A DNA stretch of 37,632 nt from an uncultured bacterium. Lineage in GTDB: Bacteria > Bacillota_I > Bacilli_A > RFN20 > CAG-826. Below, piece after piece: positions 6,025 through 36,538 of this stretch (positions are counted from its first letter, which is position 1; every line of letters starts with the position of its first letter). The position numbers were made by a program, and so were the translations under genes. The stretch is from the NCBI GenBank assembly GCA_949297445.1, contig CASFSS010000002.1, positions 1 through 37,632 of the forward strand, written 5' to 3'. The notes below the pieces were generated by a model. The model did not search any database. It saw only the letters and a program-made list of their open reading frames with translations, and was not told the DNA's origin.

Positions 6025-7383
6025 ATGAAAAACAAAATGTCGAAAAAAATATTAGCGACGCTACCATTATTTTTCTTGATGGTTGCGCTTGCTGGTTGTG
6101 ACAACACTTCGGGAAGTACCGATTCAGAAGGAAACGTTATTGTCACAATGTCACTCATGAATTCAACAAACGAAAATCCGGGCTGGTTAGCCATGATCGA
6201 TGCTGCCAATGAAGTGCTAGAAGCAAATGGCGAAAAAGTACGAATTGAGCCGGAAATTATTAAAACATCAAGTTGGGACGAATATTATACAAAAATTACT
6301 TCCAATATGTTAGGAAGAACAGGAGGCACCATTGGCCGAATCGCTGAATCGCATATACCGATGATGATTGAAAAAAATCAAATTCAAGATTTAACAGCAA
6401 TCGTCAATGGGCTAAAAGAGACAGGCGAATATAACAATGCTGCCTTTGAAGGTGTCGCAAAAGTGGATGATAAATATTATGGTTTACCAACCGGCACGCA
6501 GCATATGGTGTTATACTATAACAAAACACTTTTCGATACCTATAACGCCAATAATCCAAACGATAAAATCAATTATCCTAGCGGTGATTGGTCCAATCCG
6601 TCTACTTTTGATGAGATTAAGGAGGCAGCTAGAAAATTGTCCTCTGGCGATGGCGCATCGCGACGCTTTGGCCTATCGGCTGGACCTTATTTAGCTTACG
6701 CTGGCATGTACGCTAAAAATAGCGGTGGAGAAAATATTTTTAATGCCGCCGGTGAATGTGTAATTAAATCGCAGCCGTTTTATGATGTGTATGCGTGGTT
6801 TGACGATATGTTAAAAGTTGATCGTTCTATGCCTTCAACTAGCGATACGGCTACCAGCAGTGCAATCGATCGGTTTTTAACCGGCAATATTGCCATGATG
6901 ATTGATGGTGTTTGGCAGTTGCATGACATAATTAAATATACCGAAGGATATGATATTGGCGTTGCTGCCATTCCGGTAAAAAGTGCGGGCTATGATTGTT
7001 TTACTACGACATTTACCGATCGCTTTTTTGCCGCGCGAACATCTTCGCATCCTGAAGCCGACCAAATTGCTTTAAAGGCATTGATGTCGGAAGAAGCCAT
7101 CGCGGCGGTCAGCGAAGAACAAGTTGGTGGTTTCCCGGTTATAAATAGCCAAATAGAAACATATGTTTCTTCATTAAGAGATTCCAAACTATCCGATAGT
7201 GTTGATACCATAGAAGAAGGTATCAATCACGCCGTCAATGTCCCTTATTCCACTTACTATAATGTTGTTGATCAAAGAATTAACCAAAAAATGTCCGTTT
7301 GGATTAATGGAGAAATGACTTCGGTAGAATTTGTTGATTTTATGGATCAAACCATGAAGGATGGGATGGCTGGTCGCTTATGA
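6025..7383 (+). CDS. Family 1 extracellular solute-binding lipoprotein
   Basis: The 452-residue protein has a signal peptide and lipobox ALAGC, giving lipidated Cys25. The mature part has the family-1 sugar-binding layout: an early beta strand (VIVTMSLMNSTNENPGW), the central YGLPTGTQHMVLYYNKTLFD segment typical of CUT1 binding proteins, and a late FLTGNIAMMIDGVW motif. It would deliver sugar to the two permeases encoded just upstream. A strong AAAGGGGGG ribosome binding site precedes the ATG, stronger than those of its neighbours, which fits the excess of binding protein these transporters need. Ligand unknown; the operon context suggests an oligosaccharide or glycoside. Confidence 0.9.
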   Translation: MKNKMSKKILATLPLFFLMVALAGCDNTSGSTDSEGNVIVTMSLMNSTNENPGWLAMIDAANEVLEANGEKVRIEPEIIKTSSWDEYYTKITSNMLGRTGGTIGRIAESHIPMMIEKNQIQDLTAIVNGLKETGEYNNAAFEGVAKVDDKYYGLPTGTQHMVLYYNKTLFDTYNANNPNDKINYPSGDWSNPSTFDEIKEAARKLSSGDGASRRFGLSAGPYLAYAGMYAKNSGGENIFNAAGECVIKSQPFYDVYAWFDDMLKVDRSMPSTSDTATSSAIDRFLTGNIAMMIDGVWQLHDIIKYTEGYDIGVAAIPVKSAGYDCFTTTFTDRFFAARTSSHPEADQIALKALMSEEAIAAVSEEQVGGFPVINSQIETYVSSLRDSKLSDSVDTIEEGINHAVNVPYSTYYNVVDQRINQKMSVWINGEMTSVEFVDFMDQTMKDGMAGRL

Positions 7384-9485
7384 AAAAAGGAGCATGTTCT
7401 TTTATAATAGTTGCTTTATCGCTCGTTTTTTCTTCTTGCGATGGTAACACCATTACTTCGACTACCAGCAAAGATTTTACCGATGTAGAAACGGTTGAAC
7501 AATCATTATCAAAGGAAGAATATTTTAACAAGACACTTGGCGGTCTACTCGGGCAATTTGCCGGCTTTTTGAGCGGCTATGAATTTGTTTGGAGTGGACC
7601 AGACCCTTATTTGGCGATGCCCGAGGATTGGTTTGAATTTTTAAATGGTCCTTATGCCGGCAATTATGAACATTATTTTCCCGGCGATTATGCGACCGGC
7701 GACAATATTTATGACCGACATAAATATAACGAAGAAACAAAAATGTACGAAGTGGCTAGCGACGATGACTATCATATAGATATTTTCAACCAAACTATTA
7801 TTGATGAATTTGGTACATCAAGTTATGCAATCAAAGAAGCGTGGAAAAAATATCGAGTTAGCGATTGGGGTGGCGGCAGTGACGCCATGATGTTAATAGG
7901 CAGTTATGATACGCTCGCTCCATTTAGCGGTACCATTGAGGGCGGCAATCGTTATGGCTGGTGCACCGAGGCATATATTGAAAACGAAACGCTAGGAATG
8001 AATGCTCCCGGAATGCCCAACGTGGCCACAAGATTAATTGATAAATTTGCATCCAATGTCGGATATTTCGATTCGGTTATATGGGCTAAATTTTATGGTG
8101 CTATTTATTCGCTATGTTATTTTAGCGACAGCATAAAAGACATTATGATAGAAGCCTCAAAAGTGCTTCCCAAATACTCGCGACCTTATGATATTTATTG
8201 CGAGTGTTTAAGACTATATCAAGAGTATCCAGATGATTTTGCTATGGCGGTCAAAACGCTTGGCAATCAAAGGACTCCTTTATACCGCATCGATAACATT
8301 CAAACAGATCCAAATATTAATGGTGGTTTCGCCATTTTAAGTTGGTTATATGGAAATAACGATTACATGGATTCATGTATGTATTCTTCAATCGCTGGTT
8401 ATGACGGCGATTGTACGGCGGCCATTGTCACCGGGGCAATGGGCATAATCAATGGTTTTAAAGAAGGTAACGAAGAATATCAAAAGTTGAATGATTTAAT
8501 CTATTATGATGGCGAAGGGGTCTATTTCAATGACCGGGATTCAGGTTTCCCACCTTTTATAAGAAGCGATGAATATTTCACGCGAATTAAAATCGATGAC
8601 ATAATAGCCTTGTATCAAAAGAATTTTGAGAAAATATTGTTAGAAAACGGCGGAAGAATAGAGGGGGATACTTATTATATTCCTACGACTGATGTATATG
8701 ATGATCACTCCTTATTATTTGAAAATTATGATGCCGAAAAGCGCACGGTAGAAGGCTTTGTTTCTAACAATGCTAATTTTTTAGCTTTGAGCGAAGGCGA
8801 GAATGTAAATTCACATAGTGGTTGGGGATATTTTTCCCTTGAGAACCAAAATCAAGGTGAAGTTTATCATTTATATGATAATTTAGTAGTTGGTAATTAC
8901 TACCGTATCTCCACATATGTCAAGACAGAAGGAGACTTCGTCGGCTTTTTATATGCGAGTGACGATAATGTTGAGTCGAGCGTTTCATTCGCAAATGTCA
9001 CTTCAATCATCAACAAAGAATTTATTTTTCAAGCAACTTCTTCTACGATGAAAGTTGGCTTTAAGTTTGCTGAAAATGCTCCTAGTGGCGCTAAAATATA
9101 TTTTGATGATTTTTTTGTAGAAACAATCGACTGGCAAATATTAATTAATAATAAAAGCGACGAGTACAAATTTTATTCTGATCGTTTTAATAAATCTTTA
9201 ACTAAACCGATTGACATAAAAGAAGATGAGGAAATAATTGTGGCGATTGATTATCGTCAATATGGTGGCTCTTCAATTAGAGCGACAATCAATCGCAATA
9301 GTAACTTATTTGGTAGCGTGATGCTTTCAAACACCAGCAACAACTCGACACTTGGTTCAGATACTTTATACATTCCGTATGTTTTTGAAAGCGATAGCGA
9401 CATGTTGCAATTACAATTTGAAGGCGTGCGTCTATCGATTGGTAATATAAAATTAATAAAAAACACGCAATTTATGTTTAGGTGA
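7380..9485 (+). CDS. Lipoprotein with ADP-ribosylglycohydrolase-like fold and C-terminal CBM-like domain
   Basis: The 701-residue protein carries lipobox VFSSC (Cys20). Residues about 48-365 follow the ADP-ribosylglycohydrolase (ARH) pattern: an early small-residue helix (LGGLLGQFAGFLSG), a SDWGGGSDAMMLIG segment (D162-D168) where the DDT metal motif normally lies, and GYDGDCTAAIVTGAMG (D342, D344, T346) matching the second DxDT-type motif. The canonical Thr after the second Asp is Cys345 here, and the first motif is also altered, so metal binding and activity are uncertain. A beta-sandwich resembling CBM4/9 modules follows at about 455-585, and another beta-rich tail ends the protein. ATGA overlap couples it to the binding-protein gene. 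An N- or O-glycoside of an ADP-ribose-like or other ribosyl compound is possible, but the substrate is unknown. Confidence 0.6.
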   Translation: MKKGACSFIIVALSLVFSSCDGNTITSTTSKDFTDVETVEQSLSKEEYFNKTLGGLLGQFAGFLSGYEFVWSGPDPYLAMPEDWFEFLNGPYAGNYEHYFPGDYATGDNIYDRHKYNEETKMYEVASDDDYHIDIFNQTIIDEFGTSSYAIKEAWKKYRVSDWGGGSDAMMLIGSYDTLAPFSGTIEGGNRYGWCTEAYIENETLGMNAPGMPNVATRLIDKFASNVGYFDSVIWAKFYGAIYSLCYFSDSIKDIMIEASKVLPKYSRPYDIYCECLRLYQEYPDDFAMAVKTLGNQRTPLYRIDNIQTDPNINGGFAILSWLYGNNDYMDSCMYSSIAGYDGDCTAAIVTGAMGIINGFKEGNEEYQKLNDLIYYDGEGVYFNDRDSGFPPFIRSDEYFTRIKIDDIIALYQKNFEKILLENGGRIEGDTYYIPTTDVYDDHSLLFENYDAEKRTVEGFVSNNANFLALSEGENVNSHSGWGYFSLENQNQGEVYHLYDNLVVGNYYRISTYVKTEGDFVGFLYASDDNVESSVSFANVTSIINKEFIFQATSSTMKVGFKFAENAPSGAKIYFDDFFVETIDWQILINNKSDEYKFYSDRFNKSLTKPIDIKEDEEIIVAIDYRQYGGSSIRATINRNSNLFGSVMLSNTSNNSTLGSDTLYIPYVFESDSDMLQLQFEGVRLSIGNIKLIKNTQFMFR

Positions 9486-11117: not shown

Positions 11118-14100
11118 ATGGATGGAAAATATTATGTCGGTCTTGATATCGGCAGCGATTCAGTTGGTTGGGCAACAACCGATGAAAATTTTAATTTATT
11201 AAAATTACGTGGCAAAACAGCCTGGGGAGTCCGCCTTTTTGATGAAGCAAAAAGCGCTAAAGAAAGACGAACATTTCGGACTCAAAAACGTCGTTTGCGA
11301 AGAAGAAAATACCGCATTTATTTGTTGAATGAGTTTGTTTTTAAAGATGAAATAAACAAAATTGATCAATCTTTTTTCTTAAGAATGAGCGAATCAAATT
11401 ATGTAGTAGATGATAAAAGCGGAAAAGAAGAACATCGTTATCCGCTTTTTCTATCTAAAAAAGTGGAGCAAGAGTTTTATAAAAAGTATCCAACAATTTA
11501 TCATTTAAGAAAAGCACAACTAAATAACGACCCTGAAGCGTTTAAAGATTTAAGATATGTATATTTAACAATTCATCACATTATAAAAAAACGTGGCAAT
11601 TTTTTGCAAGAAGGCACCATCGATTTTAAAAGGATTGATAAAGATCTTGTCTTTCAATTGAATGATTCGTTTAGAAATATTGAAAATGCCGAGGACGTAT
11701 GTGACATTTTCACTTATACTATTTTAGAAAAAATTGTTGAGATTTTATTGTGTGACGAAACTAAAAACGCTAAAAAGAAGCTTATTAAAGAATTGCTCAA
11801 TAATGATGTTATAAATGATGATGCGATAAAAAATTATATCGAGATGTTTATAACTATCATCGTCGGCGGAACATACGATTTAAATAAATTATCGGAAGAA
11901 AAAAATGACGATTTAAAGAAATTAACATTTGACTCAAATTATGATGACAACTATTCGATGTTTGAAGCCGCTTTAGGAGACAATATTCTTATTGTTGATT
12001 TAGCAAAAACAATTTTTGATTTTGCTTCAATCAAGAAAATACTTGGCGACGATATTTATCTTTCGGATGCAATGGTAAAGGTTTACGAAAAACATCGCGA
12101 CGAATTAAAAACATTAAAACGTTTATTAAATAGTGTAGATGAAGCAAATAATGATAAAAATAGAACCATTTATAAAAGCGTTTTTCAAATCATCAAACAA
12201 GATATTCCTTCCGATGATGATGGTGATGGAAAAGAAGAAAAAACTATTTCAAATTACGCTTGGTTCATCGCTAAACCTAGCAAAAATTCAAACGCCGATT
12301 TCAACAAATACATTCGTGCTACTTTACAAAAAATTAGCGACGAAAATATTAAAAATAGTGCCGATTTCAAAACAATCGAAAAATTAGTGGCGAACAATGA
12401 ATTGTTAAGAAGAATATCCGATGTAAAAGATAGTAAATTTCCTCATCAATTACATGAAAAAGAATTAGAACTTATTATAGATAATGCGAGCCAGTATTAT
12501 CCGTTCTTAAAGGATAAAAAAGATAAAATATTGTCTATATTTAAATTTAGGATTAATTATTACGAAGGTCCGTTAGATGACCGATCGTCTTATTCTAATG
12601 TTTGTCGCTTATCAAACGACAAAATATATCCATGGAATAAAGACCATATTATAGATAGCGATAGAACAAAACAAAATTTCATTCGTAAATTGACTAATTA
12701 TTGTACTTATTTGGTAGGTGAGCATGTTTTGCCTCAGGATTCCATAATATTTACTGATTTTGTTAATCTTAATCGTCTTAACACAATGATTATTAATGGT
12801 TCGCAGATATCTCAAGATATAAAACTTGATTTATTCGATAACTTAATCAATAAAAGAGCTAAAGTAACGCTTAAACAGATAGAAAAGTATCTAAAAAAAT
12901 ATGAAGTTTATAAGCAGGATGGTGTTAATATTTCGGGGATTAATTCCGAAGATACATTTGGCAACCCGGCGCGTTCAATTTTAGGATCGGTTTTCGATTT
13001 GAATGATAGCGAAATTATTAAAAAGTTAGATGAAGATGTAATTTCAATTTTGGCAATTTATGGAAGCGATGGCAAAAAAGACGCAATTGATTATATTTGG
13101 AAACACAATAAACAGTTTAGTGAAGAACAAATTAAAGCAATCAAGAAGTTGAATTGTAAGAAATGGGGGACTTTATCCATGCGCCTTCTTACAGGAATTA
13201 GATGTGTTGATTCTATGGGTGTTGTTTCAAATTCCATCATCGAACTATTGCACGATACAACTAAAAATTTCCAACAAATTTTGAATGATAGTGAATATAA
13301 TTTTTTAAATCTAATTCGAAAAGAAAATAAAAATGCGCAAGGCAATCTAACCAATAAACAGCGAATTGAAGAAATTATTGAAAACGCCCCACCGATGATG
13401 CGGCGACCAACCATTCAAGCGTATCGAATAGTTAAAGAGATACAAAAAGTGGCTAAATCTTCCCCGGACAAAATATGCATAGAAGTAACAAGAACCAATA
13501 AAGACAAAAATAAGGGCAAAATGTCAAATTCAAGGCGAAAAGAACTAGAGAATTTTCTTGCTCCAATTCAAAAAGATGCAAAAGACTTATTTAGTAAAGA
13601 TGCCAAAGAATTGTTAGGGGAACTTAACAATGTTACGGATGATTTAAAATTAAAGGGGCGACATCTTTATTTGTATTTTAAACAACTCGGTTATGATTTA
13701 TATACTGGCAAAAAAATCGATATAAATGATGTTTTGAATTCTAACAAATATGATACCGATCATATTATTCCTCAAAGTAAAATAAAAGACGATTCTTTAG
13801 ATAATCTTGTTCTTGTTAATAAACATGATAATCAAGTGCTTAAAGGTGATAGATACCCACTTCCTGAAACAATACAAAATAATGAAGAAGTTCAAAAACT
13901 TTGGAAATATTTGAAAATTAAAAATCAAATTTCTGATAAAAAGTATAATAACTTAATTAGAAAAACACCTTTAAGTGATGATGAATTAAATGAATTTGTT
14001 CATCGTCAAATAAATGTGGTTAACCACGCAAACAAAGTATTAAAAGATATTTTAGAAATTGCATTTCCAAAGGCTGACATAATATTTTCAAAGGCTGAAA

Positions 14101-15152
14101 ATGCAACATATTTAAGAAAATATTTAGATATTATTAAATTGCGCGAACTGAATGACGCTCACCACGCGGTTGACGCATATTTAAATGTAGTTGCCGGAAC
14201 AATTTTAGAGTCGCATTTTAATGCAAGAAGTAAAATGCCTCTTGAAAAGCAAAAATATACATACAATCCAGAAAGAGCTCTTGAATATCATATCGAAAAA
14301 GCCGATATTGCTAAAAAAATACAAAAAATATGTGATGGCCAAGATATGTTATTTACGCAACGGGAACAATATCCCGATGATGCTTTCTATGGACAAACTG
14401 TTTTACCTAAAAAGGACTTCCCGAATGAATTAGTGCCGCTTCATACATCTGGCGTCTTGTCAGATGTGACTAAATATGGTGGTTATAATAACTTAGCTAG
14501 GTCATATTTTATGGTTGGAATCAACAGGAAAAAAGAAAAAGTTTTGATTGATGTTCCAATTTTGTATACAAAACTTTATAAAGACAAAGAACAATTAAAA
14601 GAAAAAACATTGGAATATTTTGGTGAAAGAATAGAATTGATTCCAAATGTTATCATTAATCCAAAAACCATTGTGTCGATTGACGATGTTTGCTATTTGA
14701 TAACGCCAAGCAATAGAAAGCAAATCTCTTTAACTCTATTTGATCAACTTTTTTTGAATAAAGAGCTAGTTGGGAAAATAAAAGTAATTATAAAAAAGCA
14801 AACCGACAAAGACAATTTTATCGCTACTAAATTATGTGATGAAGACATAAAGAAGAGGTCTGAAGAAAATTTAAATATCTATAAGACACTTCTAGAATGC
14901 GCGGCTAGTAGGAAATATGCTTCTTATAATTTATTTAAAAATTATCGGACAAATATTGATTCATTGTTAGAAAGTTTTGGAAAAATGTCAATTAACGAGC
15001 AAGAAATTCAAATTATTAAATTATTAAAATTATTTAATCGCTCCTCTGGATTAGCACATTTTCTTTTGTCAAAAAATAAAGTTTTTGAAAATAACACTGC
15101 CATCATCAAAACTTCTATCACTGGTTTATTTGAAAAAAAGATTAAACTATAA
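11118..15152 (+). CDS. cas9: CRISPR-associated endonuclease Cas9 (type II-A)
   Basis: The 1344-residue effector cleaves DNA guided by crRNA:tracrRNA. RuvC-I is YYVGLDIGSDSVGWA with Asp10. The arginine-rich bridge helix is at about 55-75 (RTFRTQKRRLRRRKYRIYLL). RuvC-II is ICIEVTR with Glu789. The HNH nickase motif is YDTDHIIPQS with His882, followed by Asn896 and Asn905, corresponding to N854 and N863 of S. pyogenes. RuvC-III is HHAVDAYLN with His1016 and Asp1019. All nuclease residues are therefore intact. Length matches canonical II-A enzymes (about 1350-1400). The recognition lobe and C-terminal PAM-interacting domain are divergent, so the PAM cannot be predicted. Ribosome binding site AAAGGA (11103-11108) supports the start. 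The stop is followed immediately by the cas1 ATG, giving a tight cas9-cas1-cas2-csn2 operon. Confidence 0.97.
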   Translation: MDGKYYVGLDIGSDSVGWATTDENFNLLKLRGKTAWGVRLFDEAKSAKERRTFRTQKRRLRRRKYRIYLLNEFVFKDEINKIDQSFFLRMSESNYVVDDKSGKEEHRYPLFLSKKVEQEFYKKYPTIYHLRKAQLNNDPEAFKDLRYVYLTIHHIIKKRGNFLQEGTIDFKRIDKDLVFQLNDSFRNIENAEDVCDIFTYTILEKIVEILLCDETKNAKKKLIKELLNNDVINDDAIKNYIEMFITIIVGGTYDLNKLSEEKNDDLKKLTFDSNYDDNYSMFEAALGDNILIVDLAKTIFDFASIKKILGDDIYLSDAMVKVYEKHRDELKTLKRLLNSVDEANNDKNRTIYKSVFQIIKQDIPSDDDGDGKEEKTISNYAWFIAKPSKNSNADFNKYIRATLQKISDENIKNSADFKTIEKLVANNELLRRISDVKDSKFPHQLHEKELELIIDNASQYYPFLKDKKDKILSIFKFRINYYEGPLDDRSSYSNVCRLSNDKIYPWNKDHIIDSDRTKQNFIRKLTNYCTYLVGEHVLPQDSIIFTDFVNLNRLNTMIINGSQISQDIKLDLFDNLINKRAKVTLKQIEKYLKKYEVYKQDGVNISGINSEDTFGNPARSILGSVFDLNDSEIIKKLDEDVISILAIYGSDGKKDAIDYIWKHNKQFSEEQIKAIKKLNCKKWGTLSMRLLTGIRCVDSMGVVSNSIIELLHDTTKNFQQILNDSEYNFLNLIRKENKNAQGNLTNKQRIEEIIENAPPMMRRPTIQAYRIVKEIQKVAKSSPDKICIEVTRTNKDKNKGKMSNSRRKELENFLAPIQKDAKDLFSKDAKELLGELNNVTDDLKLKGRHLYLYFKQLGYDLYTGKKIDINDVLNSNKYDTDHIIPQSKIKDDSLDNLVLVNKHDNQVLKGDRYPLPETIQNNEEVQKLWKYLKIKNQISDKKYNNLIRKTPLSDDELNEFVHRQINVVNHANKVLKDILEIAFPKADIIFSKAENATYLRKYLDIIKLRELNDAHHAVDAYLNVVAGTILESHFNARSKMPLEKQKYTYNPERALEYHIEKADIAKKIQKICDGQDMLFTQREQYPDDAFYGQTVLPKKDFPNELVPLHTSGVLSDVTKYGGYNNLARSYFMVGINRKKEKVLIDVPILYTKLYKDKEQLKEKTLEYFGERIELIPNVIINPKTIVSIDDVCYLITPSNRKQISLTLFDQLFLNKELVGKIKVIIKKQTDKDNFIATKLCDEDIKKRSEENLNIYKTLLECAASRKYASYNLFKNYRTNIDSLLESFGKMSINEQEIQIIKLLKLFNRSSGLAHFLLSKNKVFENNTAIIKTSITGLFEKKIKL

Positions 15153-16028
15153 ATGGCATTTAGGACTCTTGTAATCTCATCGCATTCTAAAATAGAGTAT
15201 TCATTAAATTATTTTGTTTTTAGAAATGCGGAAGGCGTCAAAAGAGTTCACTTAGATGAAGTATCGACTGTAATATTTGAAAGCACCAATATTTCTATAA
15301 CATCTAGCATACTTGTTGAAATGCTAAAAAGGAAAATTAATATTATTTTTTGCGATGAAAAGCATAATCCTTTAGGGCAACTGTCTTTGCTCAGCGGTGC
15401 GCATAATAATTACAAACGGATAGTGGAACAGTTGAATTGGTCTAATAAAACCAAGGAGCTTCTGTGGCAAGAGATAATTAAGCACAAAATTATTTCCGAA
15501 GCAGAAACATTAAAAAAATATAATTTAAGCGAAAAATCTAATTTATTACTTTCGTATGCAGCTGAGGTGCAAGAAAACGATTGTACAAATAGAGAAGGAC
15601 ATGCTGCGAAGGTATATTTCAACTGCATTTTTTATGAAGGATTTTCAAGAGGCGATGATTCCAAAATAAATATATTTTTGAATTATGGTTATTCAATTTT
15701 ACTTTCGCTATTTAATCGAGCAGTTGTTGCTGGTGGTTATTTGACACAATTAGGCATTCATCATAAAAACGAATATAACCAATTTAATTTTTCATGCGAC
15801 TGTATGGAACCATTTAGGGTTTTAGTTGATCAATTTGCAAAGCAAATGTATTTAGAAAACGAAGCAAATAAAGATAAAATGCTTGATTTGCTTAAATGTG
15901 AAATATCTATATGTGGCAAAATGCAAACCTTAAACAATGCTATCATTATTTATACAAATTCTATTTTTGATTCATTAAATAATAATGATGTGGGAAAGAT
16001 TAAATTTCCAGATTCGTATGCTTTATAG
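15153..16028 (+). CDS. cas1: CRISPR integrase Cas1 (type II)
   Basis: The 291-residue protein catalyses spacer integration as part of the Cas1-Cas2 complex. The metal-binding triad typical of the family is visible: Glu148 (in NREGHAAKVYF), His204 (in GIHHKNEYN) and Glu219 (in DCMEPFRVLVD). These line up with E149, H205 and E220 of S. pyogenes Cas1. The N-terminal beta domain and C-terminal helical domain have the expected length. The ATG follows the cas9 stop with no gap, and the end overlaps cas2, so translation is coupled. Confidence 0.96.
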   Translation: MAFRTLVISSHSKIEYSLNYFVFRNAEGVKRVHLDEVSTVIFESTNISITSSILVEMLKRKINIIFCDEKHNPLGQLSLLSGAHNNYKRIVEQLNWSNKTKELLWQEIIKHKIISEAETLKKYNLSEKSNLLLSYAAEVQENDCTNREGHAAKVYFNCIFYEGFSRGDDSKINIFLNYGYSILLSLFNRAVVAGGYLTQLGIHHKNEYNQFNFSCDCMEPFRVLVDQFAKQMYLENEANKDKMLDLLKCEISICGKMQTLNNAIIIYTNSIFDSLNNNDVGKIKFPDSYAL

Positions 16029-16338
16029 ATTTATGCGCATTATTTTATTTTTTGATCTCCCATCAGTATCTAGAAAAGAAAAAAGAGAATATCAAAAATT
16101 TGTGAAATATATAAAAGAAGAAGGATTTTCAATGTTTCAAGAAAGTGTATACACAAAGTTGTGTTTGAATGAAACTGTCGTGGAATCAACAATGAAAAAT
16201 ATTAAATCTAACATTCCGAAAGACGGTTTTATTTCTTGCTTGTCTTTAACAGAAAAGCAATTTTCTTCAATTGAATGTTTACTTGGCGACTTCAAGTCAG
16301 ATGTTATTATATCCGATGAAAGAATAATTAAATTATGA
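16018..16338 (+). CDS. cas2: CRISPR adaptation protein Cas2
   Basis: ATG 16018 overlaps the cas1 stop by 11 bases and gives a 106-residue protein starting MLYRFMRIILFFDLPSVSRK. Type II-A Cas2 proteins commonly begin with a similar RYRFMRMILMFDMP segment, so this start is preferred over the frame's earlier start at 15985 or the ATG at 16033. The ferredoxin-like fold with the FFDLP strand (Asp14) and the QESVYTKLCLN segment match the family. It dimerises as the scaffold for Cas1. Confidence 0.94.
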   Translation: MLYRFMRIILFFDLPSVSRKEKREYQKFVKYIKEEGFSMFQESVYTKLCLNETVVESTMKNIKSNIPKDGFISCLSLTEKQFSSIECLLGDFKSDVIISDERIIKL

Positions 16339-17012
16339 AACAATTGCAAATTGATTATTTTCAAGAACCAATAAATTTGGAAGTCGGCTATTTTTATAAT
16401 TTTGTCGTTGAAAACATCGATTTATTTAGAAAAATATATTGGTCCCTTTTTACAGAATTTGAATTTGACGACATACCAATTAAAATTTTAGATGACAATA
16501 ATTTTCAAGCACATTTTGATGAATTATGTTGCCCTATTACAAATATATTAAATACCGATTTAAATTCTAAAAAGAATCTTAACATCTTAAATAAAATATT
16601 TAAGAAAACATATTACGGAAGTTTAGATGATGATATTGTGTCATTAAAAAATAAGGCAAAAGAAATAGTAAATAATATATCACTAGATTTAGATATTCCG
16701 ATTGCTGTCAATAACGATATATCCACAGATGATTTATTTAAGTTATTTAATGTTCGTTTTATTGATGAAAAAGAGAATTTATTAGAATCTTTTATAAATT
16801 TTGTAAAGGTCATTTCCGAGTTGCAACAAAAAAATATATTTATCGTTGTGCATTTAAAAGAGTTTTTTACAAAAAACGAATTAGAAACATTGATAAAAGA
16901 AACATCTTATAGACAAATAATTTTCATAAATATCGAGACTAATAATTTGGGTGAAAAAATTACCGATGAAAAAACAATTATTATCGATAAAGACTATTGC
17001 GTATTGAATTGA
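16335..17012 (+). CDS. csn2: Csn2-family adaptation protein (divergent)
   Basis: The 225-residue protein has the length of canonical Csn2 (about 220). It shares the family's overall pattern: a start like QIDYFQEPINLEVGYFYNFV, a central helical region rich in D/E and K, the FVKVISELQQKNIFIVVHLKEFF strand-helix segment, and the ending IIIDKDYCVLN, similar to the LDEDYFLI-type end in S. pyogenes. Csn2 forms tetrameric rings that bind DNA ends during spacer acquisition. The ATG overlaps the cas2 stop (ATGA). Position as the fourth gene between cas2 and the leader defines subtype II-A. Sequence similarity is weak, so the call relies on position, length and pattern. Confidence 0.85.
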   Translation: MKQLQIDYFQEPINLEVGYFYNFVVENIDLFRKIYWSLFTEFEFDDIPIKILDDNNFQAHFDELCCPITNILNTDLNSKKNLNILNKIFKKTYYGSLDDDIVSLKNKAKEIVNNISLDLDIPIAVNNDISTDDLFKLFNVRFIDEKENLLESFINFVKVISELQQKNIFIVVHLKEFFTKNELETLIKETSYRQIIFINIETNNLGEKITDEKTIIIDKDYCVLN

Positions 17013-17062
17013 AAAATATAAAATGTAAGTAGGATTACACCAAAAACAAACCTTTATTTGAG
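16997..17062 (+). promoter_or_regulatory. CRISPR leader with candidate promoter and ATTTGAG anchor
   Basis: Only 50 bp (17013-17062) separate csn2 from the first repeat. The leader ends in ATTTGAG (17056-17062), the leader-anchoring sequence known from many type II-A loci such as S. thermophilus, and it directs Cas1-Cas2 integration at the first repeat. A candidate promoter is TTGCGT (16997-17002), 16 bp, TAAAAT (17019-17024), partly inside csn2. The degenerate repeat at the far end of the array confirms that this is the leader side. Confidence 0.75.
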
Positions 17063-18675
17063 GTTTGGGAGCGGTGTTATCCTCAATAGCTCTCCAACTT
17101 AGTCGCGCCAAGACGTAGAATAGTACTAGTTTGGGAGCGGTGTTATCCTCAATAGCTCTCCAACTACCGGCGCTCCATTCTCTTTGGCTTGTCAGTTTGG
17201 GAGCGGTGTTATCCTCAATAGCTCTCCAACTTCGATTGAGGTATAGTCAACTTTATAGTTGTTTGGGAGCGGTGTTATCCTCAATAGCTCTCCAACTTGA
17301 TGTGTCTTTATATTGTTTGAATCCTGGTTTGGGAGCGGTGTTATCCTCAATAGCTCTCCAACGCGAAGAAATAAAAAATTCTGGTTCAACAAGTTTGGGA
17401 GCGGTGTTATCCTCAATAGCTCTCCAACTCGAGCACGAAATTAATGTTGAGGATGTCGGTTTGGGAGCGGTGTTATCCTCAATAGCTCTCCAACATCTCC
17501 TCCAACCATTTGATAGCCTTGGTGGTTTGGGAGCGGTGTTATCCTCAATAGCTCTCCAACCTTGGCTTTAAATAGTGTCGATAAGTCATTGTTTGGGAGC
17601 GGTGTTATCCTCAATAGCTCTCCAACTGGGCGATCGTTAGTTTTACAGTTTGGGAGGGTTTGGGAGCGGTGTTATCCTCAATAGCTCTCCAACGTTAGAA
17701 CCTGTGAAAAGCGAGGTATTGGAGTTTGGGAGCGGTGTTATCCTCAATAGCTCTCCAACTATTTTATAAAATCCGAAAAAACACTATTAGTTTGGGAGCG
17801 GTGTTATCCTCAATAGCTCTCCAACTTATCTTCTTTAACTGCTTTATTTTCTATAGTTTGGGAGCGGTGTTATCCTCAATAGCTCTCCAACAAAAGCAAA
17901 GAAAGTTCGCAAAACTCTACGGTTTGGGAGCGGTGTTATCCTCAATAGCTCTCCAACTTTTCCTTTACTTGCATATAGAGATGTCGGGTTTGGGAGCGGT
18001 GTTATCCTCAATAGCTCTCCAACCTTCTTGAACAAAACTAGGAGCAAGATTCGGTTTGGGAGCGGTGTTATCCTCAATAGCTCTCCAACTGATTCGTAAC
18101 AGTTAAATGCTTTTCCATAGTTTGGGAGCGGTGTTATCCTCAATAGCTCTCCAACCTCGGCATCTAACTAACTCGAACATTCATGGTTTGGGAGCGGTGT
18201 TATCCTCAATAGCTCTCCAACTGAACACGAGCAGCGATAGAAGCTTTGCCAGTTTGGGAGCGGTGTTATCCTCAATAGCTCTCCAACGGCAAAACTTTTT
18301 AAGTGCATCAACTTATAGTTTGGGAGCGGTGTTATCCTCAATAGCTCTCCAACAAAGGTTGTAAGTAAGTATATATAAAAGTAGTTTGGGAGCGGTGTTA
18401 TCCTCAATAGCTCTCCAACACCCTCTTTTATAGACAACTTAACTTTAGAGTTTGGGAGCGGTGTTATCCTCAATAGCTCTCCAACGATCAACTCATAAAC
18501 CAAAAGAGAACTCGAGTTTGGGAGCGGTGTTATCCTCAATAGCTCTCCAACATAATACTTTTGATAATGTCCCTTCTCTTTGTTTGGGAGCGGTGTTATC
18601 CTCAATAGCTCTCCAACATATATTACCTCAGAGTTATTAATCGACCAGTTTGGGAGCGGTGTTATCCTCAATAGC
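17063..18675 (+). CRISPR. CRISPR array, 25 repeats (last truncated), 24 spacers
   Basis: The 36-bp repeat begins GTTTGGGAGCGGTGTTATCC and ends TCAATAGCTCTCCAAC. Its ends are partly palindromic (8 of 10 bases). The first copy is 17063-17098, and starts recur every 66 bp to 17591, then 17658, then every 66 bp from 17724 to 18582. All 24 full copies look identical. Spacers are 30 bp, except the ninth (17627-17657), which is 31 bp. The last repeat (18648-18675) keeps only its first 28 bases. Transcription is to the right from the leader at 17013-17062. All spacers differ from each other. No credible protospacer lies in this window. Confidence 0.99.
18648..18675 (+). repeat. Truncated terminal CRISPR repeat
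   Basis: This copy matches repeat positions 1-28 exactly, then runs into ATAAATTTTT in place of TCTCCAAC. Loss at the leader-distal end is the normal sign of the oldest repeat and sets the array orientation. Confidence 0.95.
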
Positions 18676-28943: not shown

Positions 28944-29420
28944 ATGAGTAAATACAACAATATTTCTTGGGATGAATACTTTATGGGTATCGCCGTCCTT
29001 TCTTCATTAAGAAGCAAAGATCCTAACACAAAAGTTGGCGCGGCAATTGTCGATGATGATCATAAAGTAGTTTCAATCGGCTATAATGGAATGCCAACCG
29101 GCATTGACGAAGAGAAAATTTCATGGAATCGTGGTGAAGGCTTAGATTCTAAATATCTATATGTCTGTCACGCAGAATTTAATGCCATCTTGAATACGCG
29201 CAATGGCAGTGCGTTAAAAGGTTGTACCTTATATGTGACGTTATTTCCTTGTAACGAATGCACGAAAGCAATCATTCAAACAGGTATTAAAGAAATTGTT
29301 TATTTAGATAATAAATACGCTGATGTTATAACGACAGTCGCTTCACGAAAGATGCTTGAATTAGCCGGCGTAAAAATTCGTAAATATGAAGGGAAGACAC
29401 CTAATATAAATTTTGCTTAA
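28944..29420 (+). CDS. dCMP/cytidine deaminase-family protein (ComEB-like)
   Basis: ATG 28944 is chosen because GAGGTGA (28932-28938) lies 5 bases upstream; the in-frame GTG at 28935 falls within that site. The 158-residue product carries the zinc and catalytic motifs CHAEFNAI (zinc-binding His, catalytic Glu) and PCNEC (two zinc-binding Cys). The opening WDEYFMGIAVLSSLRSKDPNTKVGAAIV is typical of deoxycytidylate deaminases, as is the TGI substrate region. It makes dUMP for dTMP synthesis. It leads the ecf-truA transcript. Confidence 0.9.
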   Translation: MSKYNNISWDEYFMGIAVLSSLRSKDPNTKVGAAIVDDDHKVVSIGYNGMPTGIDEEKISWNRGEGLDSKYLYVCHAEFNAILNTRNGSALKGCTLYVTLFPCNECTKAIIQTGIKEIVYLDNKYADVITTVASRKMLELAGVKIRKYEGKTPNINFA

Positions 29421-29421
29421 A

Positions 29422-30228
29422 ATGAAAGCCGTCGAAGTTAAAAATCTTTCTTATGCCTATATTGAAAATCAAGATGTTTTAAAGAACGTCTCTTTTTCGC
29501 TTGAAAAAGGAGCCTCGTTATCAATTGTTGGCGAGAACGGTTCAGGCAAATCAACCTTAGTGAAATTATTGGTTGGCTTGCTTCACTCTAGTCGAGGAGA
29601 GATTCTCATTAACGATAATCCGCTCAAACTAGGCAAAAATAGCATTTCGATTGTCTTTCAAAATCCCGACAATCAATTTATTGCAACGACCGTAGAAGAC
29701 GATATAGCTTTTGGCTTAGAAAATTATTGTGTGCCACCAAATGAAATGAAAGACATCATTATCAAATACGCCACGATGGTCGGGATGGATAAATATTTGA
29801 GTCGCGCGCCCGAAACATTGAGCGGTGGACAAAAGCAGCGCGTGGCGATTGCGGGCGTTTTAGCGCTCAATTCCGACATCATTATTTTTGATGAGGCGAC
29901 GAGCATGCTCGATCCGGAAGGAAAGAAAGATTTTTATAAAACGCTAACTAAATTGCGCAAAGAAAAGCCAGAGTTAACGACCATTTTTATTACGCACGAT
30001 GAAGAAGAGGTCTTTATGTCCGATTACATTATGGTCTTAAATCAAGGTGAGATTAAAATGTTTGGCAGCAATTTAGACATCTATAATCAAAGGGAAGAAT
30101 ATCAAAAATATGGTTTAAAATTACCCTTTTTGTTTCGTTTGGAAGATGCTTTAAAAAAAGTCGGCCTCGATGTCGGACATAATAGTTCGTTAAAAGAAAT
30201 TAAGGAGAAATTGCATGATATCCTTTGA
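29422..30228 (+). CDS. ecfA1: ECF transporter ATPase EcfA1
   Basis: ATG 29422 gives 268 residues; an in-frame TTG at 29413 overlaps the deaminase gene. Walker A GENGSGKST, signature LSGGQKQRVAIAG, Walker B IIIFDEATSMLD and ITHDEEE are all present, together with the VFQNPDNQF Q-loop typical of EcfA1. With EcfA2 it forms the ATPase heterodimer that powers vitamin uptake by exchangeable S components. It lies one base after the deaminase stop without its own Shine-Dalgarno, so coupling is likely. Confidence 0.93.
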   Translation: MKAVEVKNLSYAYIENQDVLKNVSFSLEKGASLSIVGENGSGKSTLVKLLVGLLHSSRGEILINDNPLKLGKNSISIVFQNPDNQFIATTVEDDIAFGLENYCVPPNEMKDIIIKYATMVGMDKYLSRAPETLSGGQKQRVAIAGVLALNSDIIIFDEATSMLDPEGKKDFYKTLTKLRKEKPELTTIFITHDEEEVFMSDYIMVLNQGEIKMFGSNLDIYNQREEYQKYGLKLPFLFRLEDALKKVGLDVGHNSSLKEIKEKLHDIL

Positions 30229-31066
30229 AAATGTGTTTTACACTTATGCAATTAAGACGCCTTATGAATGTTTAGCGATTAAAAACATTAATTTCACCAT
30301 TAAAGATGGTGAACTAGTTTTCATTGTTGGGAAAACCGGCTCTGGTAAGTCCACGCTCATTCAACATTTGAACGGATTATTAATTCCTAGCGAAGGAAAA
30401 GTTAAAGTAGATAATTTTGTGCTTTCTAGGAAAAGGAAAGAAGCGACGAAAAAAATAGCGCCATTAAGAAAAAAAGTCGGTGTCGTATTCCAATTTAGCG
30501 AAAATCAATTATTTGAAGATACGCTTGAAAAAGATGTCGCTTTTGGTCCGATGAATTTTAAGGTAAAAAAAGACGATGCCTTAAAGATTGCTCATGAAGC
30601 CTTAAAACAAGTGGGACTAGGCGAAGAATATTTCAAGCGTTCACCTTTTGAACTATCTGGTGGCGAAAAGCGAAAAGCAGCTATCGCGGGCATCTTAGCT
30701 TTAAATCCGGATGTGCTAGTGCTCGACGAGCCCACTTCTGGTTTAGACATGAAATCTAAAAAAGAAGTGATGAAGCTCTTTTTAGAATTAAATCAGCAAG
30801 GAAAAACAGTGATTATTGTGACGCACGATATGAATTTGCTTTTAGAATATGGCAAACGTGTCATCGTCATGAAAGATGGTGAACTCATCGATGATTTAAC
30901 GGTTGGTGATTTCTTCTACCGCGACCATAAATTTGATTTTTTAGAGGTGCCAGAAATAGTGAAGATGCTTCGCCTTCTTTTTGAAGATGGTCATAAACTT
31001 CCATACCGTGAGATTAAAGATGTTGATAGTTTAGCAAGCGAGTTAAAAAAGGAGAGCGAGAAATGA
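30215..31066 (+). CDS. ecfA2: ECF transporter ATPase EcfA2
   Basis: The 283-residue ATPase has Walker A GKTGSGKST, Q-loop VVFQFSENQLFEDT, signature LSGGEKRKAAIAG, Walker B LVLDEPTSGLD and VTHDMN. The FSENQLFEDT form distinguishes EcfA2 from EcfA1. AAGGAG lies 7 bases before ATG and the gene overlaps ecfA1 by 14 bases. The conserved order ecfA1-ecfA2-ecfT-truA supports the assignment. Confidence 0.94.
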   Translation: MISFENVFYTYAIKTPYECLAIKNINFTIKDGELVFIVGKTGSGKSTLIQHLNGLLIPSEGKVKVDNFVLSRKRKEATKKIAPLRKKVGVVFQFSENQLFEDTLEKDVAFGPMNFKVKKDDALKIAHEALKQVGLGEEYFKRSPFELSGGEKRKAAIAGILALNPDVLVLDEPTSGLDMKSKKEVMKLFLELNQQGKTVIIVTHDMNLLLEYGKRVIVMKDGELIDDLTVGDFFYRDHKFDFLEVPEIVKMLRLLFEDGHKLPYREIKDVDSLASELKKESEK

Positions 31067-32013
31067 AAAATTTTGCTCTCGGTCGTTATGTTCCCTACAA
31101 TTCGTTTTTGCATCGATTAGATCCTCGCAACAAACTTTTTTGTTTGGTGGCGTTGATGATTGCTGTTTTTTATGGCTATTCCAGTTGGGAAATTACTTTT
31201 ATTGTCGCCGGTTGTCTCTTTGCCTTTATCTTTGTCTTGATGATGATTGCTCATGTCAGTTTTCGCCAACTTTTTGGCAGTTTAAAGGCGATGTGGTTTT
31301 TAATTTTATTTTTGCTTATCGTCAATTGTGTCGTTCCTTCTTCGCAATACGTTTCGGTCGCCTTTTATATCGGCAATTTTCCCATCTACTGGGATTCCAT
31401 TTTGCAATCATTAAAAATTATTATTCGTTTAGTGTTAATGCTTTCTTTAACGATGATTTTAACTGCAACCACCAAACCTTTAGATTTAACTAACGCGCTT
31501 GAATGGTATATGGCTCCATTAAAGATTATTCGCTTTCCAGTTCATGAGATTGCGATGACAATTTCTTTGGCTTTACGCTTAATTTCTACTTTGTTAGAAG
31601 AAACTGAACAAATTATGAAGGCGCAATCATCGCGCGGTGTCGATTTTAAACATGGCGGCTTAAAGACTAAAATTAGAGCGGTTGTTTCTTTGATTGTGCC
31701 GCTATTTGTCTCTTCCTTTAAGCGTTCGGATGAGTTGGCGGACGCCATGACGGCCAGAGGCTATAATCCGCGTGCCAAACGCACAAGATATCATAAGCTG
31801 ACATGGTCTTTTGCCGACACTTCCACTTTTATTTTATCGGCCGCCATTATGTCTGGTGTCATCGTTATTTCTTCCTTGGCCTTTACCATTGAAACGCCAA
31901 CCTTTATTCCATGGTTTATCATCGCTATCTTTGCAATCATTTTTTGGATGATACTTACCGGCATTATTGACCGCTATCTTTTAGAAAGAAGAAACAAAAA
32001 ACATGCGTTATAA
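31063..32013 (+). CDS. ecfT: ECF transporter transmembrane component EcfT
   Basis: The 316-residue protein starts with the family motif FLHRLDPRNKLF and has about five to six membrane helices. The two coupling helices carry the signature Ala/Ser-Arg-Gly motifs: QSSRGVDFKHGG and MTARGYNPRAKRTRY, which dock into the two ATPases. ATGA overlap with ecfA2 and an 11-base overlap with truA keep it in one translation unit. It is the shared scaffold for all S components in the cell, including the two encoded in this window. Confidence 0.94.
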   Translation: MKNFALGRYVPYNSFLHRLDPRNKLFCLVALMIAVFYGYSSWEITFIVAGCLFAFIFVLMMIAHVSFRQLFGSLKAMWFLILFLLIVNCVVPSSQYVSVAFYIGNFPIYWDSILQSLKIIIRLVLMLSLTMILTATTKPLDLTNALEWYMAPLKIIRFPVHEIAMTISLALRLISTLLEETEQIMKAQSSRGVDFKHGGLKTKIRAVVSLIVPLFVSSFKRSDELADAMTARGYNPRAKRTRYHKLTWSFADTSTFILSAAIMSGVIVISSLAFTIETPTFIPWFIIAIFAIIFWMILTGIIDRYLLERRNKKHAL

Positions 32014-33610: not shown

Positions 33611-34264
33611 ATGGATTCTAATGTCAATTCGACAACTCTTTTAATACGGAAAATGGCTGGCATAGCCATCTTGCTTGCTAGCTCCATTATTTTAACTTTC
33701 ATTTCTAATACAATTTCAATTGCTGGCTTAGAGATTAATCTTTCTTTATTGCCGATTGGTCTAGCTGCCATTTTATACGGACCATTTGCCGGTTTATTTA
33801 TCGGTGTCATGAATGGTTTAATTGTTTTATTGGCTCCCGGTACAAGCGTCTTTTTATCGATGAATCCAGTTTTGACAGTTTTTTTATGCTTAGGTAAGAC
33901 GGGTCTAGCTGGTTTAATTAGCGGCTATTTATTCCGCTGGCTCAGAAAAGTTAATTTTAATTTAGCAATCGTAGTGGCTAGCTTGATTATTCCTATATTA
34001 AATACTGGTTTATTTGTTTTAGGCTGTCTATCTGGTTTTAATAGTTTATTTGGTGCGGTTGTCACACTTGCTCTGTTAATTAATTTTTCGATTGAAATTG
34101 CTATCAATATTGTCCTTTCGCCTTCGATTGTCTTTTTAATCAAAAAATATATGCGTGATCACGGTGAATATTTCAATTTGGAGACGAAGAGAAATAGTTT
34201 AAAAACGCAAAATAAAAAGAAAGATATTGACGCCAATAAAGTATATAATGAGGACAAAAAATGA
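33611..34264 (+). CDS. ECF transporter S component, ligand unknown
   Basis: The 217-residue membrane protein has about five to six helices. The early segment ISIAGLEINLSLLPIGLAAI followed by LYGPFAGLFIGVMNGLI shows the ECF S-component pattern, including the small-residue helix that contacts EcfT. The C-terminal 45 residues are polar and lysine-rich. There is no clear Shine-Dalgarno, and it lies 15 bases after the YebC gene. It overlaps the secreted RNase gene by 4 bases (ATGA). The context could suggest uptake of a nucleobase, nucleoside or vitamin released outside the cell, but this is an inference. Confidence 0.75.
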   Translation: MDSNVNSTTLLIRKMAGIAILLASSIILTFISNTISIAGLEINLSLLPIGLAAILYGPFAGLFIGVMNGLIVLLAPGTSVFLSMNPVLTVFLCLGKTGLAGLISGYLFRWLRKVNFNLAIVVASLIIPILNTGLFVLGCLSGFNSLFGAVVTLALLINFSIEIAINIVLSPSIVFLIKKYMRDHGEYFNLETKRNSLKTQNKKKDIDANKVYNEDKK

Positions 34265-36474
34265 AAAATTCAGCCACTAAAAAAGTAAAATTATCAACCA
34301 TTATCTTTTCTAGCATATTATTATCATCGGTCTTGATGTTTACTTTGGGTTCAACTTTTGATGAACCAACCATGCAATTGGGCGAAGCTTATGATTCGGA
34401 AATTGTCGATTGTAATAGATATTTTAATGATAACGAATATACCTCTTTATACGAAATTACCTCTTCTCTTGGAAATAACGATTCAAAGATTATAAAAACT
34501 TGGGGAACAGTGAGTGATATTCATCTTTTACGAGATGGCACGAAACGCGCCTATATTCAAAGCACCGACCGCAATGGCAATAAAGGAGCGGTAGCCCTAA
34601 TAAACTTTGGCGATGATTTATCATTAGGAAACGTTATAACCGTTAATGGCACCGTTACTCGTAATTACGGAATGCCGACATTAAATATTTCGAACTATAC
34701 AATCGATTACTTGGAAAATAGTTCACCGATTGTACCTTATGAATTGGGCAGTGTGGATTTTGGCGATGGTTTAGCAAATAATGAGCCAGCATTTACCAAG
34801 TTTTATGAACAAGGAACCATTTATTCGACGATAAAAAATGTCAAATTAATTTATGATGCCAGTGCATCTATAAATAAAAATAGCGAGCACACTGTTAAGT
34901 TTGCTAACGGCGATACTTTGACATTATATGTCAATAGTTCAAGCGCGGCGACCATTTTAAATAAATTGGCTAATTTAAATGGGAAACAAGTGGATATCTA
35001 TGGCCCAATTCAATCTTTTGTCAATGGTAGTGGTCAAAACCAATTTTTAGAAATTCTTATTGGTGAAGATTCACAAATCGTTGAAACAACTTTAGCCGAT
35101 TATCCAATAACCGCCATTCGCGCATCGAAGACTTCGGTTAATTTAGCTCAAGGCGGCACTTCGATTATTGAGATAAATTTATTTCCACAAAATAGTTTAT
35201 TGTCATCTTATAGTTTTGAAGTAGCCGACGAAAGTATTGTTACTTGCAGCAAAAATAGTGACGGTTCCTTACTTTTGACCGCTTTATCTATTGGCGAAAC
35301 TAGCGTAAATGTTTTTGCTAGTGCTGACGCCAATATTTCTCTATCATTGTTGATAGAAGTAGGTGAGGGCGTGCCAGCATCGCTTACTTTTTCTAGTAAT
35401 GATACACCTTATGGCGAACTAGGCTATGATACGGGTAATTATTTTACCTATTCCTATGACGGCAATAGTTTTGGCTTCTATCGCGCGGTGAGTAAGAGCG
35501 GCGATTTTATCTCTTTGCTTGGCGAAAACCAGATTAACAATTTGCTTGAATATTCCTTAGCTGGCGCTTTTTATAACGAAGCGGCGTTTGGAAAAATTTT
35601 ATCGATTGAAATAGAATATTTCAGCGAGAGTTCTGGCGATTGGCCAACTGTTTCTTTTGGCGTTAACCACGAGATGACTTATGTGCATCAATTGCCGTAT
35701 GTTTCATCTTATAGCGAAGAAACTATCGATGTGAGCGATTACGCTTTCAATTATTTCATAATTGAAACCGGCGGTAGTGATTTGTCTATCAAAAGCTTGA
35801 CAATTAATTATCTTCTAAATTCTGGCGCGTCGGCTGATTTTGCGACTTTGGATGGCTTATCCTATCGATTAGAGCCAGTTGTTTATACGGGCAACTTGAT
35901 TCCTGGACAGTCTTCGGTAGATGTGCCAATTGATGTCACCTATTATAGCGATGGAACATATACCGTGAATGAATATGTTACTTTAACATATGATACATAC
36001 GATGCAGCCATCGCTAATTCGCGAATAGAAAACTTATATGTCGATATTGCTTTGGTCAGCGCTTATTTTACTGCTTTTAAGACTTACCCAGCTAATTACG
36101 TTAGCAAGGATGATTATTATGAGGCCTATCAATATTTTGGCGACTTAACTCGCTCTGTTTCTGCCTATACGCGCACCGACGGATATGCCTTAAGTGTTCC
36201 TTGGAATCCATATGAAAATGGTCAGCCGTTATATTACGAATTAGATGTGGCAATTAGTGATAGTTATAGCGGTAGTAATCGGGGAGTTGGTCGATTAGTC
36301 GCGTGGGTAGCCGGATTTGAGGGTTATGGAGATTCTTACCCAGTAGTTACTTACACAGACGATCATTACGCCACCTTTAAAGAGTATTATAACGATGGCT
36401 GCTTTTCGGCCAATTTCAATGCTGAGATGACAAGAAGCGCCTATAATTATGGTTATCCGCTTATAGTTCATTAG
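34261..36474 (+). CDS. Secreted multidomain protein with C-terminal RNase Sa/barnase-type ribonuclease domain
   Basis: The 737-residue protein has an N-terminal hydrophobic export signal (about 11-31) without a lipobox. Two OB-fold-like regions follow (about 75-150 starting KTWGTVSDI, and about 180-270), as in extracellular nucleases of the YhcR kind. A Big_2-type Ig-like domain (about 285-370), an unassigned beta domain (about 370-520) and a C-terminal nuclease domain complete it. In the last, Glu660 (YYELDV), Arg674 and Arg678 (NRGVGR) and His702 (DDHYATF) reproduce the order and local motifs of RNase Sa E54, R65, R69 and H85, including exact R-x-x-x-R spacing. It should cleave RNA after guanosine outside the cell. 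No barstar-like inhibitor is nearby; a secretion-only route would make one unnecessary. Confidence 0.72.
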   Translation: MKNSATKKVKLSTIIFSSILLSSVLMFTLGSTFDEPTMQLGEAYDSEIVDCNRYFNDNEYTSLYEITSSLGNNDSKIIKTWGTVSDIHLLRDGTKRAYIQSTDRNGNKGAVALINFGDDLSLGNVITVNGTVTRNYGMPTLNISNYTIDYLENSSPIVPYELGSVDFGDGLANNEPAFTKFYEQGTIYSTIKNVKLIYDASASINKNSEHTVKFANGDTLTLYVNSSSAATILNKLANLNGKQVDIYGPIQSFVNGSGQNQFLEILIGEDSQIVETTLADYPITAIRASKTSVNLAQGGTSIIEINLFPQNSLLSSYSFEVADESIVTCSKNSDGSLLLTALSIGETSVNVFASADANISLSLLIEVGEGVPASLTFSSNDTPYGELGYDTGNYFTYSYDGNSFGFYRAVSKSGDFISLLGENQINNLLEYSLAGAFYNEAAFGKILSIEIEYFSESSGDWPTVSFGVNHEMTYVHQLPYVSSYSEETIDVSDYAFNYFIIETGGSDLSIKSLTINYLLNSGASADFATLDGLSYRLEPVVYTGNLIPGQSSVDVPIDVTYYSDGTYTVNEYVTLTYDTYDAAIANSRIENLYVDIALVSAYFTAFKTYPANYVSKDDYYEAYQYFGDLTRSVSAYTRTDGYALSVPWNPYENGQPLYYELDVAISDSYSGSNRGVGRLVAWVAGFEGYGDSYPVVTYTDDHYATFKEYYNDGCFSANFNAEMTRSAYNYGYPLIVH

Positions 36475-36509: not shown

Positions 36510-36538
36510 TTGACATTAACACTTTATATTAATATAAT
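36510..36538 (+). promoter_or_regulatory. Consensus sigma-A promoter of rplM-rpsI
   Basis: TTGACA (36510-36515), a 17-bp spacer and TATAAT (36533-36538) match the consensus exactly. The predicted transcription start is near 36545, about 55 bases before the rplM ATG. It makes the ribosomal genes independent of the truA-side transcript. Confidence 0.85.

Follow-up and report, generated by a model that had tools for sequence, protein, structure and literature searches.

Textbooks present barnase as a small secreted enzyme that stands alone. The protein described here has in common with barnase, binase and the other bacterial guanyl-specific RNases of the N1/T1 type (PF00545) the N-terminal helices, a four-residue catalytic set, the DHYxTF motif and, by prediction, export. 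Unlike barnase and binase, it measures 737 amino acids instead of about 110, with OB, Ig-like and jelly-roll modules fused to the RNase domain; furthermore, it has an extra C-terminal tail, lacks barstar and carries D640 (variable in its relatives) in place of E60. In design, it resembles the extracellular nucleases YhcR (Bacillus subtilis) and ExeM (Shewanella), which are large exported proteins with tandem nucleic-acid-binding parts of the OB type (PMC11458576, PMC6085458); our protein, predicted to be exported, appears to be built alike. The catalytic domains of these two are, however, unrelated to barnase (that of ExeM is of the EEP type, while YhcR is Ca2+-dependent and cuts both RNA and DNA), so that the same design is found in a different family. 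The secreted Endonuclease I (EndA/Dns, PF04231, with Big_2) of the same genome is also a modular exported nuclease, and its 1157-aa copy shares the jelly-roll, but its catalytic domain is a different one. Barnase-ended polymorphic toxins likewise carry a C-terminal RNase on a long exported protein; in our case, by contrast, no immunity gene was found, the C-terminus is conserved and a delivery domain is absent. Here, the barnase fold appears as the putative catalyst within a large exoenzyme of modular build, which recurs across many genera of uncultured gut and rumen Bacilli. An open-access literature search returned no paper describing a barnase-type domain in an architecture of this kind.

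The gene (34261..36474, plus strand) occurs in a 37,632-nt stretch of DNA from an uncultured bacterium, which was analysed as a whole and is called the window. The ORF call and the homologues define a modular protein of 737 amino acids, predicted to be exported, with a C-terminal barnase-type RNase domain. The ORF is intact and genuine; it has a plausible ribosome-binding site of the GAGGA type, and its ATG overlaps by 4 nt the stop codon of the gene for an ECF S component; the first-pass annotation of this DNA had noted that the two overlap. Downstream lies rplM-rpsI, with its own perfect −35/−10 match at 36510-36538. The RNase gene is single-copy in its genome (an assembly of 1.12 Mb in 18 contigs with a completeness rating of 100%), and its base composition resembles that of the neighbouring genes, giving no hint of recent import. 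Collections of phage, plasmid and viral sequences yielded no matches, and an origin from such elements was rejected on that ground. No riboswitch or tRNA context for the gene was found within the window. Elsewhere in the window, a type II-A CRISPR-Cas locus (11118-18289) encodes Cas9 (1344 aa), Cas1, Cas2 and Csn2 and includes an array of at least 17 units with a 66-nt period. The gene for a 701-aa protein (7380-9485), with a match to ADP-ribosylglycohydrolase below threshold, separates a cluster for a sugar-type ABC transporter from the gene for its ATPase.

The RNase domain spans residues 590-710 (36028..36390, plus strand), as delimited by PF00545, hhalign and predicted secondary structure. 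PF00545 is the only catalytic Pfam match in the protein, and its score straddles the gathering cut-off of 24 bits according to the scope of the search: 20.4 bits (E 7e-4) for the whole 737-aa protein, 23.7 bits (E 7e-5) for the isolated domain and 24.1 bits in the genome search. Amongst the family members, 18 out of 20 match PF00545, with a best E of 2.5e-7. The profile match by which the first-pass annotation had proposed to check its RNase assignment was indeed obtained: with hhalign, the family profile and that of 18 short barnase-type enzymes aligned with a probability of 98.8% (E 6e-17), the catalytic residues being in register. The profile of this short set in turn identified barnase (1e-38) and RNase Sa (about 1e-8) in the PDB. 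A PDB search with the RNase family profile returned barnase (E 0.003), followed by antibody light chains as noise, and a PDB sequence search with the full 737-aa protein gave a chance flagellar match alone. In the fold search with the model of residues 377-737, both match lists were occupied by the jelly-roll, so that the missing barnase row is uninformative. We take the PF00545 resemblance as not being due to chance: judged by its sequence, the C-terminus is a barnase-type RNase domain and the putative catalyst.

The order and spacing of the catalytic Glu-Arg-Arg-His set of N1/T1 ribonucleases are matched in the 737-aa protein. E660 (36238..36240), the expected general base, corresponds to E73 in barnase and E54 in RNase Sa; R674 (36280..36282) to R83 and R65; R678 (36292..36294) to R87 and R69; and H702 (36364..36366), the expected general acid, to H102 and H85, respectively (all plus strand). 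These four residues, which the first-pass annotation had numbered correctly, are invariant in 27 out of 27 aligned sequences and sit on predicted secondary-structure elements where barnase would have them. Two predicted helices (596-606 and 616-629) precede the RNase strands, an order of elements that fits barnase. These barnase N-terminal helices (at about 596-629) and the jelly-roll at 377-519 had escaped the first-pass annotation. Its label for the domain, RNase Sa/barnase-type, stands for barnase and falls for RNase Sa as the closest match, since the upstream helices and the profile match both point to barnase; by homology, the predicted catalytic domain groups with barnase within the N1/T1 RNases. 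The barnase guanine loop N58-R59-E60-G61 reads R-T-D-G in the 737-aa protein. Barnase E60 aligns with D640, which is D in 13 of the 20 members and N, T or S in the others; the base preference may thus differ. Residues 711-737 (36391..36471, plus strand) form a family-specific C-terminal tail of the EYxNxGxFxxRFNAE type, missing from short barnases.

Upstream of the RNase domain, the first 31 residues (34261..34353, plus strand) are hydrophobic and, by sequence inspection, are predicted to act as an export signal or to anchor the protein in the membrane; a pattern scan detected no lipobox in them. Residues 59-153 (34435..34719, plus strand) form an OB fold (PF01336, E 0.012), for which structure comparison with the archaeal RPA domain 3dm3 gave a Z of 11.7 (rmsd 2.0 over 84 residues). 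Both the export signal and the OB fold had been proposed beforehand. Residues about 177-275 (34789..35085, plus strand) are probably a second OB-like barrel, to judge from Foldseek, the conservation and a model of low confidence (pLDDT 64). The Foldseek matches of residues 43-275 are the tandem-OB proteins Teb1, POT1 and SSB, and the two barrels are conserved together as one unit in the other OB-bearing family members. For the Big_2-type domain that had been announced, a weak match was found in the form of a Big_2-like (bacterial Ig) domain at residues about 283-366 (35107..35358, plus strand; PF02368 E 0.01, PF13629 E 0.0014, both below cut-off). Residues 377-519 (35389..35817, plus strand) make up a jelly-roll domain resembling carbohydrate-binding modules, with a model pLDDT of 84 and, in the fold search, matches to CBM29, CBM4 and CBM16 (Z about 8-10). 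This module is common to most members of the RNase family, and it is also present in one Endonuclease I and in a peptidase of the source genome. The latter (G000:C4:29815-30156; L136:2615-5089) measures 824 amino acids and matches Big_3 as well as M6-type peptidases. Its occurrence on an M6-type peptidase implies that the jelly-roll is not nuclease-specific and is a general exoenzyme module of the lineage.

Relatives were sought in a sample of 95 genomes, consisting of the source genome and its relatives. In all, 28 genomes had a match to the 737-aa protein, three of them by the Ig-like part alone, leaving 25. The 737-aa protein is thus one of a family of RNases of modular build, predicted to be exported, in uncultured Bacilli; their common unit is the jelly-roll plus the RNase domain, and the N-terminal modules differ between members. 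When the presence of OB folds is mapped on a tree with 26 members, three changes of the label are needed, at least two of which are forced by well-supported branches, which means that modules were gained or lost. The pattern scan detected a lipobox in most OB-less members and in none of the OB-bearing members with a readable N-terminus. In a class-wide search, 57 out of 395 genomes matched the jelly-roll plus RNase unit, many via one domain only. Those relatives that have names are MAGs, with the labels Erysipelotrichaceae, Bacilli or Bacillales, several of them from rumen or other gut samples. One family member (L118:7392-10197; G006:C26) falls into two overlapping ORFs, owing to what looks like a frameshift after the jelly-roll and before the RNase part; this could be a pseudogene or an assembly error.

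Uncultured Bacilli such as those of the order RF39 are described as having reduced genomes and many auxotrophies (PMC6784871). In single-family searches, PurH was absent from 94 of the 95 genomes, including that of the source (control genomes positive: 12 out of 14), and PyrB was absent from the source genome, seven of the 95 scoring above cut-off (controls: 14 out of 14). The source bacterium is apparently unable to make its own nucleotides, auxotrophy being taken here from two marker enzymes, PurH and PyrB. Endonuclease I has eight matches in the source genome of 1.12 Mb and is present in 85 of the 95 genomes, often as long modular proteins. The 1157-aa copy includes Big_2 and Big_3 domains and carries the jelly-roll module of the RNase (E 3e-10). 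Its gene is adjacent to those for a 5′-nucleotidase and an Fe-S protein that resembles dihydroorotate dehydrogenase and may be a dihydropyrimidine dehydrogenase of the PreA type (G000:C18:352000-359500; L112:172-6918), and this cluster is likely a nucleic-acid utilisation operon. A second 5′-nucleotidase and one xanthine/uracil-type permease (Xan_ur_permease) are also encoded in the source genome, in which searches for CNT and BMP nucleoside transport systems gave no matches. Amongst the relatives, Endonuclease I genes adjoin the RNase gene in G085 and G047, and a 5′-nucleotidase-like gene does so in L051. The RNase lies within 5 kb of Endonuclease I in two cases against about 0.7 expected by our estimate, a clustering too weak for us to count as proof.

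The first-pass annotation had suggested an RNA-scavenging system tied to nucleoside or vitamin uptake. The scavenging part of that suggestion is supported: PurH and PyrB are missing and the set of secreted nucleases and nucleotidases is large. We read the 737-aa protein as an enzyme that a nucleotide scavenger exports to degrade RNA, with a probability of roughly 70%. The domain homology, the invariant residues and the layout were computed here, as were the gene absences and the nuclease expansion; from them, we infer that the protein is exported, cleaves RNA, binds it by means of the OB folds and has a nutritional role. The N-terminal signal would take the protein out of the cell, where it would be either tethered or released. 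RNA or a glycan-rich surface may be gripped by the OB folds, possibly aided by the jelly-roll; the barnase-type domain would then cut RNA, E660 serving as the general base and H702 as the general acid, with R674 and R678 positioned at the phosphate. Secreted DNases, 5′-nucleotidases and the nucleobase permease could subsequently convert environmental nucleic acid to usable nucleosides and bases. There is a precedent in YhcR, an OB-fold-bearing secreted nuclease that reclaims extracellular DNA for phosphate (PMC11458576). The auxotrophy is lineage-wide, so the RNase carriers are not singled out by it, and the patchy distribution of the family (roughly one in four of the 95 genomes) implies that it is not essential to the lifestyle.

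At the level of the family, we venture, as a reading slightly less likely than not, that modular barnase-type RNases with OB, Ig-like and CBM-like parts let uncultured, nucleotide-auxotrophic gut and rumen Bacilli live on environmental RNA, the accessory modules serving harvesting by a substrate- or surface-held enzyme rather than by a free small RNase. As these bacteria lack key nucleotide-synthesis genes and have several secreted DNases, the family offers a testable answer to the question of how reduced-genome gut bacteria are supplied with nucleotides, and RNA, nucleosides and bases suggest themselves as cultivation supplements.

The same architecture could serve an antibacterial effector or polymorphic toxin, whose N-terminal modules would carry the barnase-type domain into neighbouring cells to destroy their RNA. 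Polymorphic and contact-dependent toxins can end in barnase-like nucleases (PMC3482391, PMC9086364), and the RNase domain is C-terminal in a long protein predicted to be exported. The effector option had been raised by the first-pass annotation, along with the lack of a barstar-like partner nearby; the latter extends to the entire source genome and to every relative that carries the modular RNase type. The only barstar in the 95 genomes adjoins a short barnase in G061, and its recovery indicates that the barstar search works. Moreover, the genes downstream are housekeeping (rplM here), and no small immunity-like neighbour recurs beside the RNase genes of relatives, though a wholly novel immunity protein may be encoded there. 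In this family, it is the N-terminal modules that vary, on a conserved C-terminal half, the opposite of what polymorphic toxins display, and the 737-aa protein has no known delivery domain; we consider the effector option unlikely. Comparably improbable, in our estimation, is a primary role in colonisation, in which extracellular RNA and DNA would be degraded in mucus, biofilm or host traps and nutrition would be secondary. The OB and CBM-like modules would be fitting for an enzyme held at a surface or in a matrix, and other bacteria have extracellular nucleases that attack biofilm and neutrophil traps (e.g., PMC4118848, PMC3764145). Such traps, however, are DNA, while the barnase family cleaves RNA, not DNA, and nutrition accounts more directly for the genome-wide pattern, i.e., no PurH or PyrB, nucleotidases and a nucleobase permease.

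The tie to uptake, in which the RNase would free a nucleoside or vitamin for import by the S component next door, is the part of the first-pass proposal that did not survive. The two genes overlap, and genes for ECF A, A′ and T are located just upstream, at 29413-32013. Against this, the S component (33611..34264, plus strand), which we place outside the proposed function, matches the thiamine type (PF12822 1e-10, PF09515 2e-8; NCBIfam ThiT match below cut-off). The survey of homologues for a conserved S component or inhibitor gene alongside detected recurrence of neither: the RNase genes of relatives have unrelated neighbours and no recognisable S component, and the full-length orthologues in genus g33 are flanked by a DUF1904 gene and a gene read as rsmB. 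We rejected the link because the pairing does not recur, and we would give a functional unit of the two hardly any credence; given the ThiT-like type and the lack of recurrence, the overlap most likely reflects two unrelated genes that are transcribed together.

Short barnase-type RNases also occur in the material. The one in G061, a relative of the same order, is a lipoprotein of short barnase type encoded next to a barstar (L031 and L081; G061:C64:3154-3706), a classical barnase-barstar pair in contrast to the modular family. Two others (L061 and L075) are encoded on contigs labelled Methanobrevibacter (archaeal MAGs), which would be explained by either horizontal transfer or misbinning.
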